This document shows positions 7,002 through 14,894 of a stretch of 64,000 nt of DNA, in pieces. Every line of letters starts with the position of its first letter. The first letter of the stretch is position 1. The stretch lies in NCBI RefSeq assembly GCF_014647115.1, contig NZ_BMOO01000001.1:248001-312000 (forward strand), written 5' to 3'. The notes below the pieces were generated by a model. It ran no database searches, was not told where the DNA came from, and worked only from the letters and a program-made list of their open reading frames with translations. Origin of the DNA: Halarchaeum rubridurum (lineage in GTDB: Archaea > Halobacteriota > Halobacteria > Halobacteriales > Halobacteriaceae). The position numbers and the translations under genes are program-made.

Positions 7002-7004
7002 AAG

Positions 7005-7079
7005 TGGGTTGGGGCGGATTTGAACCGCCGGCCTCCTCCATGTCAAGGAGGTGTCATAGCCTGACTAGACCACCAACCC
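7005..7079 (-). tRNA. tRNA-Val (GAC)
   Basis: The minus strand folds into a full cloverleaf of 75 nt. The acceptor is GGGTTGG/CCAACCC with discriminator A, the D-arm region is GGTCTAGTCAGGCTATGACAC, and the anticodon stem-loop is CCTCC-TTGACAT-GGAGG with anticodon GAC. The T arm is GGCGG-TTCAAAT-CCGCC. No CCA is encoded, as is usual in haloarchaea. A TATA-like AACTATACC lies about 48 bases upstream (about 7126). It precedes the divergent trp operon. Its 3' 18 bp are duplicated at 6864. Confidence 0.95.
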
Positions 7080-7190: not shown

Positions 7191-7238
7191 GCTTATACTG
7201 GTGTACAGACTTGTACATCGTAAGCCGAATTCGTACAC
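7191..7238 (+). promoter_or_regulatory. trpD promoter with phased TGTACA boxes
   Basis: A TATA element (TTATA, 7193-7197) is followed by TGTACA at 7202-7207, TGTACA at 7212-7217 and the near-match CGTACA at 7232-7237. The spacings are exactly 10 and 20 bp, so all lie on one face of the helix. They surround the expected start site (about 7221). TGTACA is the TRP-box core bound by the methanogen repressor TrpY. Its use here is an inference. A further palindrome ACACCGGTGT overlaps the third box. Confidence 0.7.
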
Positions 7239-7249
7239 CGGTGTCCACT

Positions 7250-8281
7250 ATGCAGGATTACATCGAACGCGTCACGGACGGGGAGGACCTCACGCTGGCA
7301 GAGGCACGCGACGCCGCGACGGCCGTCTTCGACGGCGCGAGCGACGCGCAGATCGGCGCACTGCTCGCCGGGTTGCGCGCGAAGGGCGAGACGGAGACGG
7401 AGATCGCGGGCTTCGCGCAGGGGATGCGCGACGCCGCCATCACCATCGACCCCGAACGCAGCCCGCTCGTCGACACGTGCGGGACGGGCGGGGACGACTA
7501 CGACACCATCAACGTCTCCACGACGTCCGCCATCGTCGTCGCCGCGGCGGGCGTCCCCGTCGCCAAGCACGGCAACTACTCCGTCTCCTCCTCCTCGGGG
7601 AGTTCGGACGTCTTAGAGGAGGTGGGCGTCGACCTCGACGCCGACCCGGCGGCCGTCGAGGACCACATCGAGAGCTACGGTATCGGGTACATGCACGCGC
7701 CCGCGTTCCACCCCGCGATGAAGGCCGTCATCGGCCCGCGGCGCGAGCTCGGGATGCGCACCATCTTCAACGTCCTCGGGCCGCTGACGAACCCCGCGGG
7801 CGCGGACGCGCAGGTCCTCGGCGTCTACGACCCCGACCTCGTGTCCGTCATCGCGAGCGCGCTCACGGAGATGCCCGCGGAGGACGCCCTCGTCGTCCAC
7901 GGCAGCGGCCTCGACGAGATAACGATCCACGACGAGACGGTCGTCGCGGAGGTCCACGGCGACGAAATCGAGGAGTACACGCTCACGCCCGCGGACCTCG
8001 GGCTGGAGCGGAGCCCCATCGACGCCATCGCCGGGGGGACACCGGCGGAGAACGCGGCGGACCTGCGCGGAATCGTCGAGGGCGACGTGACGGGCGCGAA
8101 GCGCGACGTCATCCTCGCCAACGCGGGCGCGGCGGTCTACGTCTCGGGGGAGGCCGACACGCTCGAAGCCGGCGTGGACGCCGCCCGCGAGGCCATCGAC
8201 TCGGGCGCGGCCGCCGAGAAACTCGACGCGCTCCGCGGTGCGGACGCGGACGCGGAGCGAAGCACGAGCGTGGAGCAGTGA
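7250..8281 (+). CDS. trpD: Anthranilate phosphoribosyltransferase
   Basis: TrpD transfers phosphoribosyl from PRPP to anthranilate, the second step of tryptophan synthesis, in the cytosol. The 343-residue protein has the glycine-rich PRPP loop VDTCGTGGDDYDTINVST (about residues 80-97). It also has KHGNYSVSSSSGSSDVLE and FNVLGPLTNPAGA, all diagnostic of the family. The start at ATG 7250 gives the usual helical N-terminus (MQDYIERVTDGEDLT). It leads the trpD-F-E-G operon, with 2 bases between its stop and trpF. The phased TGTACA boxes just upstream suggest repression by tryptophan status. Confidence 0.97.
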   Translation: MQDYIERVTDGEDLTLAEARDAATAVFDGASDAQIGALLAGLRAKGETETEIAGFAQGMRDAAITIDPERSPLVDTCGTGGDDYDTINVSTTSAIVVAAAGVPVAKHGNYSVSSSSGSSDVLEEVGVDLDADPAAVEDHIESYGIGYMHAPAFHPAMKAVIGPRRELGMRTIFNVLGPLTNPAGADAQVLGVYDPDLVSVIASALTEMPAEDALVVHGSGLDEITIHDETVVAEVHGDEIEEYTLTPADLGLERSPIDAIAGGTPAENAADLRGIVEGDVTGAKRDVILANAGAAVYVSGEADTLEAGVDAAREAIDSGAAAEKLDALRGADADAERSTSVEQ

Positions 8282-8283
8282 CG

Positions 8284-8958
8284 ATGGCCGGACGCACCCG
8301 TGCGAAGGTCTGCGGGCTGACGAACGCCGACGACGTCGCGGCGGCGGTCGACGCGGGCGCGGACGCCCTCGGGTTCATCGTGGACGTGCCGGTGGACACG
8401 CCCCGCGAAATCGACCCCGAGACGGCCGCAACCCTCGTCGCGGACGTCCCGCCGTTCGTCTCGACGGTGCTCGTCACGATGGCGGCCCCCGAGGACGTCC
8501 CGGCGCTCCACGAGCGCGTGGGGACCGACGCCGTGCAGGTCCACGGGGACGTCGACGCGGACGCGCTCGCCGCGCTCGCGGCCGACTGCGACGCGACGCT
8601 CGTGAAGACGGTGGACGCGGCGGCGCCGGAGTCGGCGCGCGCGTACGCCGACGTCGCGGACGCGCTGCTCGTCGACTCGACGGACGCGTCGGGCGCGGGC
8701 GGCACCGGGCGGACGCACGACTGGACGGCGACGCGCGACCTCGCGGCCGACCTCGACGTCCCCGTGGTCCTCGCGGGCGGGCTCACGCCCGCGAACGTCG
8801 CGGAGGCGGTGCGGACGGTCGAACCGTACGCGGTCGACGTCGCCTCGGGCGTGGAGCGCGAGGGCGGCGCGAAGGACCGCGACGCCGTGCGGTCGTTCGT
8901 GGCGAACGCGACGGGCGCGCTCGACGGCGTGGACGAGGAAGCGGAGGTGTCGGCCTGA
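8284..8958 (+). CDS. trpF: Phosphoribosylanthranilate isomerase
   Basis: TrpF converts phosphoribosylanthranilate to CdRP, the third step of tryptophan synthesis. It is a TIM barrel of 224 residues opening with RAKVCGLTNADDVAAAVDAGADALGFI, where CGLT carries the catalytic Cys. Near the C-terminus DVPVVLAGGLTPANVAEAV and AVDVASGVER form the phosphate-binding loops. It starts 2 bases after trpD. Its TGA overlaps the trpE ATG (TGATG), implying translational coupling. Confidence 0.96.
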   Translation: MAGRTRAKVCGLTNADDVAAAVDAGADALGFIVDVPVDTPREIDPETAATLVADVPPFVSTVLVTMAAPEDVPALHERVGTDAVQVHGDVDADALAALAADCDATLVKTVDAAAPESARAYADVADALLVDSTDASGAGGTGRTHDWTATRDLAADLDVPVVLAGGLTPANVAEAVRTVEPYAVDVASGVEREGGAKDRDAVRSFVANATGALDGVDEEAEVSA

Positions 8959-10538
8959 TGGCGTTCGACGTGTCGCGCGAGGCGTTCGTCGAGCGCGCGG
9001 CCGGCGACGGCCCGGGCGTCGTCTACGCCGAAGCCGAACTCGACGTCGACGTCACGCCGCTGGGCGCGTACGCGGCGCTCGCTGACGGCGACTACGGCTT
9101 CCTGCTCGAATCCGCGGAGAAGACCGCGGCCTCGGACCCCGGCGGGGCGTTTCGGCCGCGCGACGCGGCGGGGGACCGGCACGCGCGCTACTCGTTCGTC
9201 GGCTACGACCCGGACGCGGTCGTGAGCGCGACGCCCGAGGGGGCGACGGTCGAGCGGCTCGCGGACACGCGCGCGGCGGCGAGCGTGACGCCGGGCGACG
9301 GCGACGTCCTCGACCAGCTCCGCGGGGCGCTCCCGGACGCGGACCGCCGTGGCTTCCCGGAGAGCGAGCGCCAACTGCTCGATGGCGGCCTCGTGGGGTT
9401 CGTCGCCTACGACGCCGTCTACGACCTGTGGCTCGACGAGGTCGGCGTGGAGCGCCCGGAGACGCGCGTCCCGGACGCGGAGTTCGTCCTCACGACGCGC
9501 GCGCTGCGCTTCGACCGGGCGACGGGGACGCTGTCGCTCGTCTGCACGCCGGTCGTCGACCCGGCCGCGGACGACGTCGGGGCGCTCTACGACGACCTCG
9601 TCGCGGAGGCGGCGCGCGTCGAGCGCGCGCTCGCGGACGCGGACGAGCCGGAGACCGGCGGCTTCGAGCCGGTCGCGGAGCACGCGGGGCCGCAGGCGGA
9701 GTACGAGGAGGCGGTCGAGCGCGCCAAGACGGCGGTGCTCGACGGCGAGATATACCAGGGCGTGATCTCGCGGACGCGCGAGCACGAGGGCGAACTCGAC
9801 CCGCTCGGGCTCTACGCGGCGCTGCGCGAGATCAATCCCTCGCCGTACATGTACGTCCTGAAACACGGCGAGCGGACGGTCGTGGGTGCGAGCCCGGAGA
9901 CGCTCACGAGCGTCCACGGCGACGAGGTGCTGAACAACCCCATCGCGGGCACCTGCCCGCGCGGGACGAGCCCCGTGGAGGACCGCCGGCTCGCGGGCGA
10001 GATGCTCGCGGACGAGAAGGAGCGCGCCGAGCACACGATGCTCGTCGACCTCGCGCGCAACGACGTCCGGCGCGTCAGCGAGGCGGGGAGCGTTCGCGTC
10101 CCGGAGTTCATGCGCGTCCTCAAGTACAGCCACGTCCAGCACATCGAGTCGACGGTGACCGGCCGCCTGCGCGACGACCTCGACGCCTTCGACGCGATTC
10201 GCGCGGCCTTCCCCGCGGGGACGCTCTCGGGCGCGCCGAAGGTGCGCGCGATGGAGCTCATCGACGAGCTCGAACGAACACCCAGAGGCATCTACGGCGG
10301 CGGCGTGGGGTACGTCTCGTGGACGGGCGACGCGGACGTCGCCATCTGCATCCGGACGGCGACGGTCGAGCACGGCGCGGGCACGGACGGCGCGGACGTC
10401 GTTCGGGTGCGCGCGGGTGCCGGCGTCGTCGCGGACTCCGACCCGACGAGCGAGTACGAGGAGACGGAGAAGAAGATGGGGGGGGTACTCGACGCCCTCG
10501 ACGCGGTCACGCGGACCCCCGAGGAGGTCCGGCGATGA
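8958..10538 (+). CDS. trpE: Anthranilate synthase component I
   Basis: TrpE forms anthranilate from chorismate using ammonia from TrpG. The protein has 526 residues. The N-terminal anthranilate synthase domain carries the tryptophan-binding LLES motif (YGFLLESAE, about residue 45). The C-terminal chorismate-binding domain has GEIYQGVISRTREHEG, NPSPYMYVLK, GTCPRGTSPVED, LVDLARNDVRRV and FPAGTLSGAPKVRAMELIDELE. The final ATGA overlaps the trpG start by 4 bases. The retained LLES motif predicts feedback inhibition by tryptophan. Confidence 0.97.
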   Translation: MAFDVSREAFVERAAGDGPGVVYAEAELDVDVTPLGAYAALADGDYGFLLESAEKTAASDPGGAFRPRDAAGDRHARYSFVGYDPDAVVSATPEGATVERLADTRAAASVTPGDGDVLDQLRGALPDADRRGFPESERQLLDGGLVGFVAYDAVYDLWLDEVGVERPETRVPDAEFVLTTRALRFDRATGTLSLVCTPVVDPAADDVGALYDDLVAEAARVERALADADEPETGGFEPVAEHAGPQAEYEEAVERAKTAVLDGEIYQGVISRTREHEGELDPLGLYAALREINPSPYMYVLKHGERTVVGASPETLTSVHGDEVLNNPIAGTCPRGTSPVEDRRLAGEMLADEKERAEHTMLVDLARNDVRRVSEAGSVRVPEFMRVLKYSHVQHIESTVTGRLRDDLDAFDAIRAAFPAGTLSGAPKVRAMELIDELERTPRGIYGGGVGYVSWTGDADVAICIRTATVEHGAGTDGADVVRVRAGAGVVADSDPTSEYEETEKKMGGVLDALDAVTRTPEEVRR

Positions 10539-11119
10539 AGGTCGTCTTCGTCGACAACTTCGACTCGTTCACGTACAACCTCGTGGAGTACGTGAGCGAA
10601 CACCCCGGCGTCGAGACGGCGGTTCTGAAGAACACGGCGTCGCTCGCCGACGTCGAGGCCGAGGAGCCGGACGCGCTCGTCATCTCGCCGGGCCCGGGCC
10701 ACCCGAAGAACGCACGGGACGTCGGCGTCACCGCGGACGTCCTCACGGACCTGAGCCACGACGTGCCGACGCTCGGCGTCTGCCTCGGGATGGAGGCCGC
10801 GGCGTACGAGTACGGCGGGGCGGTCGGACACGCGCCCGCGCCCGTCCACGGGAAGGCCTACCCCGTCGAGCACGACGGCGCGGGCGTCTACCGGGACCTC
10901 GAACAGGGGTTCCAGGCGGGGCGCTATCACTCGCTCGTCTGCACGGCCATCCCGGACTGCTTCGACGTCACGGCGACGACGGAACACGACGGCGAGACGC
11001 TCCCGATGGGGATTCGTCACCGCGAGTACCCCATCAAGTGCGTGCAGTTCCACCCGGAGAGCGTGCTCACGGGCGTCGGCCACGACGTCGTCTCGAACTT
11101 CCTCGAATCGGTGCGCTAG
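10535..11119 (+). CDS. trpG: Anthranilate synthase component II (glutamine amidotransferase)
   Basis: TrpG releases ammonia from glutamine for TrpE. The protein is 194 residues, a single class I amidotransferase domain beginning VVFVDNFDSFTYNLVEYV. The oxyanion loop SPGPGHP, nucleophile elbow GVCLGMEAAAYEYGG and catalytic HPES (KCVQFHPESVLT) are present. The nucleophile elbow is unusual: most TrpG proteins read GVCLGHQ, but here HQ is replaced by ME. The catalytic Cys, His and Glu remain. It is the last gene of trpDFEG, and its stop overlaps the end of a convergent small membrane gene. Confidence 0.96.
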   Translation: MKVVFVDNFDSFTYNLVEYVSEHPGVETAVLKNTASLADVEAEEPDALVISPGPGHPKNARDVGVTADVLTDLSHDVPTLGVCLGMEAAAYEYGGAVGHAPAPVHGKAYPVEHDGAGVYRDLEQGFQAGRYHSLVCTAIPDCFDVTATTEHDGETLPMGIRHREYPIKCVQFHPESVLTGVGHDVVSNFLESVR

Positions 11120-11316: not shown

Positions 11317-11711
11317 ACGGTGTCCGTCGGCGGGTGAGACGAAAAGTCTGGGGGCGGCCACGCGCCGCGACCGCCGGTGAGCACCGTCGTCCCCTCGGGT
11401 CGCCGGCGCGCGGCGGCGCGGGTCGTCGACGCGACGCGTGAAACTGAAAAGCCACGGAGGGCGGCCGAATCGACGCGCGTAGTCGGCCACTTTCACACCG
11501 CTTTACGAGGGGTTATGCCCCTCCCGCGAATACGGACGTAGCACGCGCGAGGCCGGTCCGGGTGTGAGTCGCTCACCACCGATGGCCGTGAACGGAAACA
11601 CTATGACCGGTCCGCCAGTAACGATTGGTCGTCTCGAACGACCCCTTACCACCCACTACCTATGAGCCCGAAACCCACCTGTACGTCACGAGCAGCACGG
11701 AGGCGCGACGC
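11317..11711. other. Intergenic region with inverted repeat upstream of ribonucleotide reductase
   Basis: This is 395 bases without a convincing gene. It holds one perfect inverted repeat, GAGGGG(TTATG)CCCCTC at 11507-11523, about 190 bases before the reductase ATG. I found no clear TATA box at the leaderless distance from 11712 and no match to a cobalamin riboswitch core. The frame is open for 29 codons upstream of 11712, but the segment does not resemble reductase N-termini. Confidence 0.55.
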
Positions 11712-14700
11712 ATGAGTTCGAACGACATCGGCGCGGACGAAGTCACCCTGCCCATCAAGCGCGTCGACGGCGACACGCTCGCCGAGCGGATGACCGAGAA
11801 CGCGTACAACAACATCCTGCCGGCGCGCTACCTCCGACAGAACGCCGACGGCGACCTCGTCGAGGACCAGGAGGACCTCTTCGTGCGCGTCGCGAAGAAC
11901 ATCGCGCTCGCCGAGGCCGTCTTCGAGGCCGAGAAGCAGGGCGTCGACGTGACCGTCACGCCCGACCAGGTGAAGCCGGACCACCCGCGCCGCGACGAAC
12001 TCGTCGCGGAGGTCTTCGGCGACGACGTCTCCCTCGACGGCGACGTCGAAATCGACCTCACGGAGGAGAACGTCAACAAGTTCGCCTACGAGACGGTCGT
12101 CCCCGAGCTCCCCGACGAGGTCCGCGCGCACGTCGAGGACACCGCGGAGCGCTTCGAGGGGCTGATGAGTCGGCTCGCCTTCATGCCGAACTCCCCGACG
12201 CTGATGAACGCGGGCGACGAGCTCCAGCAGCTCTCGGCGTGTTTCGTCGACTCGCCCGCCGACGATTTAACTGACATCCACCAGACCGCGAAGGAAGCGG
12301 CGGAAGTCTTCCAGAGCGGCGGCGGCATGGGGTACGCCTTCTGGCAGCTGCGCCCCTACGGCGACCCCGTCGGCTCCACGGGCGGCATCGCCTCCGGCCC
12401 GATGACGTTCATGGAGACGTTCGACCAGATGTGCGAGACCATCGCGCAGGGCGGCGCGCGCCGCGGTGCGCAGATGGGCGTCATGCGCATCGGCCACCCG
12501 GACGTCATCGAGTTCATCCACTCGAAGAACAAGGACGTCTCGCTGGCCCACTGCCTGAAGCTCAACGACCCCGACGACTACACGTACACGACGTTCGGCG
12601 AGGCCTTAGAGGAGGCCCGCGACCTCATCGACGAGGACGGCAAGGTGCCCAAACACCTGCGCAACGCCGTCGAGGGCCACCTCTCGAACTTCAACATCTC
12701 CGTCGGCGTCTCCGACGACTTCATGGAGGCGCTCCAGAACGGCGAGGAGTTCACCTTCACGAACCCGCGGACGGGCGAACCCCACATCGCCACCGCGGAG
12801 ACGAAGGAGATGTACTCGCGCTACGACCTCGGCGAGCACGTCGACGTCGGCGAGGAGTTCTCCATCCCGGCGGAGCTCGTCTGGGAGCGCATCGTCGAGG
12901 GCGCCCACGAGAACGGCGAACCCGGCGTCGTCTACCTCGACCGCGCGAACACGGAGCACTCCTTCGACGTCGAGGAACACCCCGAACACGAGATGCTCGC
13001 CACGAACCCCTGCGGCGAGCAGCCCCTGGAGGAGTACGAGGCCTGCAACCTCGGGCACATCAACCTCTCCACCATCGTCGCCGAGGACGCCCCCGACTGG
13101 CGCGTCTGGAGCGAGAACAACGACTACGACAGTCTGGAGGAGGGCATCTCGCGCTTCCTCGAGGAGGCCCTCGACCAGGAGGAGTTCGACTACCGCATCG
13201 AGACCGGCACGCGCTTCCTCGAAAACGTCGTCACGATGTCGGACTTCCCGGTCCCGGAGATCGAGGAGAAGGTCTCCGAGATGCGCAAGATCGGCCTCGG
13301 CATCATGGGCCTCGCGCAGCTCTACGTCCAGCTCGGGATGCGCTACGGCGACGAGCCCGCGAACGAGGTGGCGAGCCAGGTGATGCAGCACATCAACCAC
13401 GGCTCGAAGACCGCCTCCCACGAGCTCGCGGAGGAGCGCGGCTCCTTCGACGAGTGGGACAACTCGAAGTACGCGAACCCGACGGAGTACGCGGAGTGGT
13501 TCGAGCACCACACCGGCGAGGACCCCGAAGCGTACGCGGAGGGGTACGCGATTCGCAACCACAACACGACGACCATCGCGCCGACCGGTACGACGTCGAT
13601 GGTCGGCAACACCACGGGCGGCTGTGAGCCCATCTACAACGTCGCCTACTACAAGAACGTCTCCGACGACGTGCAGGGCGACGAGATGCTCGTCGAGTTC
13701 GACGACTACTTCCTCCGGACGCTGGAGGCCAACGACGTCGACGTCGAGGCGGTCAAGGAGGAAGCCCAGGAGCAGATGGCGAACAACGAGTTCGACGGCG
13801 TCTCCGGGCTCTCCACCGTCCCAGACGCCATCGGCGAGCTCTTCGTCGTCACCGCCGACCTCTCCGGCAAGCAGCACGCCGCGGTCCAGTGTGCGTGTCA
13901 GGACGGCGTCGACTCCGCCATCTCGAAGACCTGTAACTTCCCGAACTCCGCGTCCGTCGAGGACATGCGCGAGGTGTACGAGTACATCTACGAGCACGGC
14001 GGGAAGGGCGTCACCGTCTATCGGGACGGGACGCGCTCGAAGCAGGTCCTCACGACGCGCGCCGACAACACCGAGTTCAGCGACATGGAGGAGGACGAGG
14101 CCGCCGAGGCGATGCTGGAGAGCATCCGCGACACATTCGGCGACCTTGAGGGCTTCCTCGACAACGAGGAGGTCCGCGCGGCGGTCGGCGACGACGTCGA
14201 CGAACTCGTCGAGATCGACGTCGCCCCGGAGGGCGCACAGAAGCGTCCGCGCCCGGACGTCCTCTACGGCGTCACCCAGCGCATCGACACGGGCTACGGG
14301 AAGCTCTACGTGAACATCAACGAGGACGAGGCCGGCCGGCCGTTCGAGCTCTTCGCCAACATCGGCAACTCGGGCGGCTTCACGGCCTCGTTCACGGAAT
14401 CGCTCGCCAAGACGGTCTCGACGGCGCTGCGCGCCGGCGTCGACCCCGAAGAGATCGCGAGCGAACTCCAGGGCATCCGTTCGCCGAAGGTCGCCTGGGA
14501 CAAGGGCGAGCAGATAAACTCCATCCCGGACGCCATCGGCACCGCGATGCGCCGCTACCTCGACGGCGAGATCGACAAACAGGTGCCCAAACAGCAGAAC
14601 CTCACGGAGCTCGCGGAGGAGGACACCGAGGGCGTCGAGACGGACGGCTCGGGCGCGACGAGCGCGAACGCGAACGCGAGCGCCGACGTGGACATCGACG

Positions 14701-14894
14701 TCGGCGACGCCGCCTCCCCGAACGTCGACGTCGCCGAACCCGCGGAGAGTCAGTCCGCCGATGCCGACGACGCGACCGCGGACCTGCTCGCGGCCGGCGA
14801 GAGCCCCGAGTGTCCGGATTGCGGCGCGATGGACCTCTACTACTCCGAGGGCTGCAAGACCTGCCAGTCGTGTGGCTGGTCCGAGTGCTCGTAA
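11712..14894 (+). CDS. nrdJ: Adenosylcobalamin-dependent (class II) ribonucleotide reductase
   Basis: This enzyme reduces ribonucleotides to deoxyribonucleotides using a B12-derived thiyl radical, so it works with or without oxygen. The 1060-residue protein has an ATP-cone-like N-terminus and the barrel motif LMNAGDELQQLSACFV. Further motifs are GGGMGYAFWQLRP, NPCGEQPLEEYEACNLGHIN (radical-site Cys in NPCGEQ) and APTGTTSMVGNTTGGCEP. The C-terminal half has the vitamin B12-dependent reductase extension (GYGKLYVNINEDEAGRPFE), an acidic low-complexity linker of about 50 residues, and a terminal zinc ribbon CPDCG...CKTCQSCGWSEC that probably relays electrons. ATG 11712 is chosen because MSSNDIGADEVTLPIKRVDG matches the usual N-terminus. 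Confidence 0.96.
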   Translation: MSSNDIGADEVTLPIKRVDGDTLAERMTENAYNNILPARYLRQNADGDLVEDQEDLFVRVAKNIALAEAVFEAEKQGVDVTVTPDQVKPDHPRRDELVAEVFGDDVSLDGDVEIDLTEENVNKFAYETVVPELPDEVRAHVEDTAERFEGLMSRLAFMPNSPTLMNAGDELQQLSACFVDSPADDLTDIHQTAKEAAEVFQSGGGMGYAFWQLRPYGDPVGSTGGIASGPMTFMETFDQMCETIAQGGARRGAQMGVMRIGHPDVIEFIHSKNKDVSLAHCLKLNDPDDYTYTTFGEALEEARDLIDEDGKVPKHLRNAVEGHLSNFNISVGVSDDFMEALQNGEEFTFTNPRTGEPHIATAETKEMYSRYDLGEHVDVGEEFSIPAELVWERIVEGAHENGEPGVVYLDRANTEHSFDVEEHPEHEMLATNPCGEQPLEEYEACNLGHINLSTIVAEDAPDWRVWSENNDYDSLEEGISRFLEEALDQEEFDYRIETGTRFLENVVTMSDFPVPEIEEKVSEMRKIGLGIMGLAQLYVQLGMRYGDEPANEVASQVMQHINHGSKTASHELAEERGSFDEWDNSKYANPTEYAEWFEHHTGEDPEAYAEGYAIRNHNTTTIAPTGTTSMVGNTTGGCEPIYNVAYYKNVSDDVQGDEMLVEFDDYFLRTLEANDVDVEAVKEEAQEQMANNEFDGVSGLSTVPDAIGELFVVTADLSGKQHAAVQCACQDGVDSAISKTCNFPNSASVEDMREVYEYIYEHGGKGVTVYRDGTRSKQVLTTRADNTEFSDMEEDEAAEAMLESIRDTFGDLEGFLDNEEVRAAVGDDVDELVEIDVAPEGAQKRPRPDVLYGVTQRIDTGYGKLYVNINEDEAGRPFELFANIGNSGGFTASFTESLAKTVSTALRAGVDPEEIASELQGIRSPKVAWDKGEQINSIPDAIGTAMRRYLDGEIDKQVPKQQNLTELAEEDTEGVETDGSGATSANANASADVDIDVGDAASPNVDVAEPAESQSADADDATADLLAAGESPECPDCGAMDLYYSEGCKTCQSCGWSECS

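Follow-up and report, generated by a model that had tools for sequence, protein, structure and literature searches.

Helically phased TGTACA boxes at haloarchaeal trp promoters, probable operators of a TrpY-family repressor

Introduction

The literature searched does not establish how haloarchaea regulate tryptophan synthesis, and the promoter of the trpDFEG operon of Halarchaeum rubridurum raises the question in concrete form: a series of TGTACA-like hexamers follows its TATA box in 10-bp phase. Do these hexamers form an operator, and what would bind it? TGTACA is the consensus of the TRP boxes of Methanothermobacter, and work with Haloferax volcanii routinely uses the tna promoter, which tryptophan induces. 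In Methanothermobacter, TrpY acts through TRP boxes to repress trpEGCFBAD and is autoregulated, and haloarchaeal homologues of TrpY were described in 2019 as unexamined (PMC6737238). We found no description of TRP-type boxes in haloarchaea in the literature searched, most subscription papers lying outside it. An earlier reading of the H. rubridurum promoter, made from sequence only, had proposed that a TrpY-like or convergent repressor controls the trp genes of this haloarchaeon by blocking the start site. Here we follow up that proposal by comparative sequence analysis.

Results

Positions below are those of the window, the whole 64-kb stretch of H. rubridurum DNA that was analysed. The TATA box of the trpDFEG promoter (TTATAC, 7193..7198, plus strand) is identified by the sequence and by an alignment of 81 trpD loci. 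Behind it lie two palindromic TGTACA boxes without strand, box 1 at 7202..7207 (about -20 to -15 from the predicted start) and box 2 at 7212..7217 (about -10 to -5), and, in the 5' leader, CGTACA at 7232..7237 (box 4, likewise strandless), recognised from the sequence and a Markov comparison. These three boxes, at 7202, 7212 and 7232, had been placed exactly by the sequence-only reading, which overlooked a further in-phase box, TGTCCA at 7242..7247 (box 5, strandless, one mismatch to TGTACA), adjoining a Shine-Dalgarno-like GGTG motif. The sole unoccupied slot of the array, slot 3 (AAGCCG, 7222..7227, plus strand), coincides with the expected transcription start. A nearly invariant A stands at +20 from box 1, about 26 bp from the TATA centre; since this is the usual distance to an archaeal transcription start, we predict that transcription begins at 7222 with a 28-nt leader, which puts the boxes at about -20, -10, +11 and +21.

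The operon downstream, all on the plus strand, begins with trpD for anthranilate phosphoribosyltransferase (7250..8281; TIGR01245, 427 bits, cut-off 199) and continues with trpF for phosphoribosylanthranilate isomerase (8284..8958), assigned by its operon position and by a match to NF002298 (E 6.9e-51) that, at 173 bits, is below the cut-off of 215. The genes for the two components of anthranilate synthase follow, trpE for component I (8958..10538; TIGR01820 TrpE-arch, 577 bits, cut-off 512) and trpG for component II (10535..11119; NF041322, 355 bits, cut-off 320). A tRNA-Val (GAC) gene at 7004-7079 on the minus strand is divergent from the trp promoter. The same large gene (11625-14894 in the window) lies 3' of trpDFEG in most haloarchaeal loci (L048-L127) and is apparently a ribonucleotide reductase gene, a name given by eye. 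A regulator adjoining the trp genes was rejected as a candidate, the trpD neighbourhoods consisting of trpDFEG and the conserved downstream gene with no conserved regulator.

Taken alone, the hexamer TGTACA is weak evidence because it is not significantly enriched in the window (4 exact copies observed, 1.36 expected). The arrangement is another matter. Scored over slots 0, 10, 30 and 40, the array has 2 mismatches in 24 positions; the second-best place in the 64 kb has 9, and the best match in 6 million positions of order-3 Markov sequence has 7, with none lower. In the whole 2.8-Mb genome the trpDFEG promoter is the only place with the exact pair TGTACA-N4-TGTACA. The phased trpD array is far beyond chance.

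We next compared 80 named haloarchaeal trpD loci, drawn from a scan of the genome collection. Nearly all of them bear the array, the Haloferax trpD promoter included. Phased pairs with at most one mismatch number 29 in the 100 bp 5' of trpD versus 0 in 813 kb of flanking sequence; with at most two mismatches they are present in 71 of the 80 promoters, and only 3 pairs fall elsewhere in the loci. The corresponding p-values, 6e-59 and smaller, overstate the evidence because the genomes are related and the counts are not independent, but the lack of the pattern elsewhere in the same loci does not depend on the kinship of the genomes. The boxes upstream of trpDFEG are thus retained in close relatives; their absence there, which the sequence-only reading had named as the outcome that would speak against it, was not seen.

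The helical register of the array is equally well defined. Counted without any alignment, box-like hexamers at trpD stand 10 bp (73 pairs), 30 bp (58), 20 bp (32) or 40 bp (21) apart, 184 pairs in all, and every other distance accounts for at most 6 pairs. In the alignment of 81 loci, which is anchored on boxes 1, 2 and 4 so that the anchoring itself accounts for part of the occupancy there, a hexamer with at most one mismatch to TGTACA fills the slot of box 1 in 69 loci, that of box 2 in 67 (exactly in 37) and that of box 4 in 45; for box 5 the count is 26. The TTW core of the TATA box begins 9 bp 5' of box 1 in 69 of the 81 loci. At offsets of -20, -10, +5, +15 and +20 from box 1 no aligned trpD locus has a box; these empty offsets, like the pair distances, are independent of the anchor. 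Slot 3 may nevertheless keep a half-site, since an A and a C within it are nearly invariant (information content 1.9 and 2.0 bits). The boxes, their phasing and their conservation are accordingly established by direct comparison.

Phased boxes were also found 5' of trpCBA, where the sequence-only reading had suggested looking for them, in a register different from that of trpD. In trpC promoters, aligned on their three slots, the boxes occupy slots 0, 10 and 20, with the TATA box at -3 and the ATG at +29; the slots end 3 bp 5' of the ATG, and Haloferax, Halobacterium, Haloarcula and others are alike in this. Pairs are 20 bp (26 pairs) or 10 bp (15) apart. By its sequence layout the trpC array again spans the region from TATA box to start. 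The first codons of trpC (ATGGACG or ATGAACG) contain TGRACG, a degenerate box that adds a fourth member in the same 10-bp phase (L016:8952-8960; L128-L157).

Searches of 243 haloarchaeal genomes indicate how specific the targets are. A strict trpC-type pattern, YGTRCA-N4-TGTACA-N3-ATG, gave 18 matches and its reversal none; the 18 comprise 11 trpC genes, 1 trpB gene and 6 copies of an NSS transporter gene from one genus. The exact pair TGTACA-N4-TGTACA occurs at 43 sites, versus 6 for the reversed pattern, and the 30 sites inspected lie at trpD (24), the NSS transporter (2) and other places (4). The closest PDB relative of this transporter by sequence is 4us3 (E 4e-60), well ahead of LeuT and the serotonin transporters; we take 4us3 to be MhsT with tryptophan bound. 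The MhsT-like protein is a candidate tryptophan importer under the same control. In the six genomes of that haloarchaeal genus (L220-L225) the phased pair stands 3 bp 5' of the transporter ATG. Within H. rubridurum itself, only trpDFEG and trpCBA were recognised as promoter-placed members of the regulon; further members were sought among the other pairs with two mismatches and rejected, these being intragenic or 5' of unrelated reading frames.

Which protein could read these boxes? A search of the H. rubridurum genome for ACT domains yielded one HTH-ACT protein, of 166 residues, encoded at G000:C4:355746-356234. It is a TrpY homologue of the kind that the sequence-only reading had suggested seeking: it matches NF053754 (TrpY_fam) with E 1.3e-67 and 227 bits against a cut-off of 180, over profile positions 5-163 of 163. 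Its ACT domain is recognised by Pfam with E 1.6e-5, though at 25 bits versus a cut-off of 27, and the HTH part of the architecture is read from helices and conservation only. An AlphaFold2 model (mean pLDDT 87.6, pTM 0.58) has an N-terminal helical part and a C-terminal ACT domain, whose relative placement is uncertain because of the pTM; a fold search with this model retrieved the regulatory or ACT domains of IlvN, homoserine dehydrogenase and PGDH. Across 22 sequences, the putative recognition helix, VDRRVVD, hardly varies. Of 243 haloarchaeal genomes 237 encode TrpY, and none of the 205 good-quality ones lacks it; for the phylum Halobacteriota the count is 238 of 247 (200 of the 203 of good quality). 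Membership of the TrpY family and its universality are thereby established, and the HTH-ACT fold is predicted. The HTH_10 family (PF04967) was discarded as a source of regulator candidates, its 15 copies being uninformative.

The genetic setting of haloarchaeal trpY differs from that in Methanothermobacter. A trpY gene adjacent and divergent to the trp operon is a feature of the methanogen; no named haloarchaeal locus has trpY near trpD, and in 20 other genomes trpY has no trp genes in its vicinity. A trpY promoter that itself bears boxes likewise belongs to the autoregulated Methanothermobacter circuit rather than to the definition of the family, and none of 30 haloarchaeal trpY promoters has phased boxes, so that autoregulation of haloarchaeal trpY through such boxes was dropped.

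The pattern is not confined to haloarchaea. Other families of the phylum supplied 20 trp loci, each 17 kb long, which contain 13 pairs with one mismatch or none; every one of these is in the 250 bp 5' of the first trp gene, against 0 in the 334 kb elsewhere (p 2.7e-24). Fifteen additional loci gave three more such trp promoters (L308, L311, L317) and several with two mismatches, among them phased box-like pairs 5' of a trpB-like gene that is itself upstream of trpE (L314, L315, L318). Two families deviate. Family f26 has complete trp clusters without boxes in two draft genomes and no TrpY above the cut-off. The methanogen family f21 has TrpY and no phased boxes near the trp cluster in 3 loci (L305-L307), so that in this family either the motif or the role of TrpY would be a different one. 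The joint loss of TrpY and boxes in f26, one event in two draft genomes, is suggestive only, because f21 lacks boxes both with and without TrpY. Taken together, the distribution of the boxes makes the phased TRP-box switch appear old and shared across this archaeal phylum.

Discussion

Judged from these comparisons, the array is almost certainly a functional operator of the trp pathway, and TrpY is likely to be the protein that binds it. It is probable that the two make up one switch, a TRP-box operator at which a tryptophan-sensing TrpY repressor blocks initiation. The unlinked TrpY-family regulator would act on the arrays when tryptophan is plentiful and bound to its ACT domain; TrpY dimers would then occupy palindromic TGTACA boxes set 10 bp from one another, all along the same face of the DNA. 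Once filled, the array would mask the promoter immediately 3' of the TATA box, over the start and on into the leader, and RNA polymerase would be barred from initiating there. The same TrpY would control trpCBA and, in one genus, the MhsT-like transporter. The placement of the boxes is consistent with such a block at the start. The earlier proposal of a TrpY-like repressor blocking the trp start thus draws support from the presence of TrpY, the trpCBA boxes, the relatives, the other families and the geometry; what we infer is that TrpY is the protein bound there, that it responds to tryptophan, that it represses, and that it does so by blocking initiation.

Other explanations have to be weighed against a TrpY repressor. 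An origin of the array in chance or base composition, to which the unenriched lone hexamers might point, has a negligible probability, being ruled out by the conservation at haloarchaeal and other trp loci and by the Markov null model. It is also very improbable that the conserved leader is an RNA element, an attenuator or riboswitch, with the DNA boxes as a by-product. The conserved stretch does run into the 5' leader and overlaps the Shine-Dalgarno-like GGTG; however, no Rfam family matches the trpD leader (only the neighbouring tRNA reached the cut-off), the conservation includes boxes 1 and 2, which are not transcribed, the 10-bp period is that of a DNA palindrome, and the boxes recur at trpC, whose predicted transcript is almost leaderless.

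Nor do we favour the idea that the boxes are real tryptophan-pathway operators bound by another regulator, of the Lrp/AsnC type or undescribed, with TrpY acting elsewhere. This is unlikely, although TrpY homologues differ in function among lineages (PMC6737238), f21 has TrpY without boxes, and the presence of TrpY barely discriminates because the protein is near-universal in the phylum. Against it stand the A+T-rich motifs of the Halobacterium FFRPs, nAAn{1-5}TTn (PMC4177876), which are unlike TGTACA and do not describe the boxes found here. The family f26, without both TrpY and boxes, also argues for TrpY. We know of no regulator family except TrpY that binds TRP boxes. The sign of the control is a further point. 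A TrpY that sits on the boxes mainly as an activator or weak modulator, rather than as a tight repressor, is improbable on our estimate; bound downstream of the TATA box, over the start and in the leader, a protein normally blocks, and archaeal activator sites are usually upstream of BRE/TATA. Two reports lean the other way: in Thermococcus the regulator Tar, which serves this pathway too, is an activator (PMC6737238), and the Haloferax volcanii trpCBA promoter is described in PMC13147458, which cites Large et al. 2007, as not tightly regulated. Mild control of trpCBA through the array is compatible with this description; absence of control is not.

With a TrpY repressor as the preferred reading, the haloarchaeal system can be set beside known ones. 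Like Methanothermobacter thermautotrophicus (trpY-trpEGCFBAD, trpB2), haloarchaea have a TrpY-family HTH-ACT regulator and TGTACA boxes that overlap trp promoters, binding being predicted in the haloarchaeal case, and the boxes 5' of the trpB-like gene in the non-haloarchaeal loci L314, L315 and L318 resemble the trpB2 target. In contrast to the methanogen, the haloarchaeal arrays have 3 to 5 slots across TATA box, start and leader, at two separate operons. The homologue from Thermococcus kodakarensis, TkTrpY (TK1227), is 42% identical to MtTrpY but does not bind its own trp promoter and does not regulate trp (PMC6737238); it is thus a TrpY homologue that experimentally is no trp regulator, whereas haloarchaeal TrpY is accompanied by conserved trp-promoter boxes. 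Tar (TK0271) of the same organism is likewise an archaeal regulator of aromatic amino-acid genes, but activates three aromatic operons (PMC6737238), while the predicted haloarchaeal targets are trp genes and one transporter only. With the bacterial TrpR operator the parallel is a tryptophan-dependent block of a trp promoter, a functional analogy only.

These results would extend the known TrpY/TRP-box system rather than found a new class. What is new is a different circuit, with an unlinked trpY and a boxless trpY promoter, and a distribution wider than that described in the literature searched, which suggests an early origin and a broad spread for a mechanism known from a single methanogen. 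The haloarchaeal TrpY branch gains specific predicted targets, an operator and a geometry in the genetically tractable Haloferax. A bolder extension, which we consider possible but doubtful, is that TrpY with its phased TGTACA array already served as the tryptophan switch in the ancestor of all Halobacteriota, its helical register kept nearly constant while operon order, neighbourhood and promoter register changed; in haloarchaea, five slots centred on the start would form a track along which dimers polymerise, with repression graded by the slots filled and the last slots hiding the ribosome-binding site.

Two isolated sites were noted in passing. One haloarchaeon (L035) has TGTTCA-N4-TGTACA-N4-AGTACA 5' of a putative HTH regulator gene, which may be chance, and another (L272) has an exact TGTACA pair behind the TATA-like GTATAAAA.
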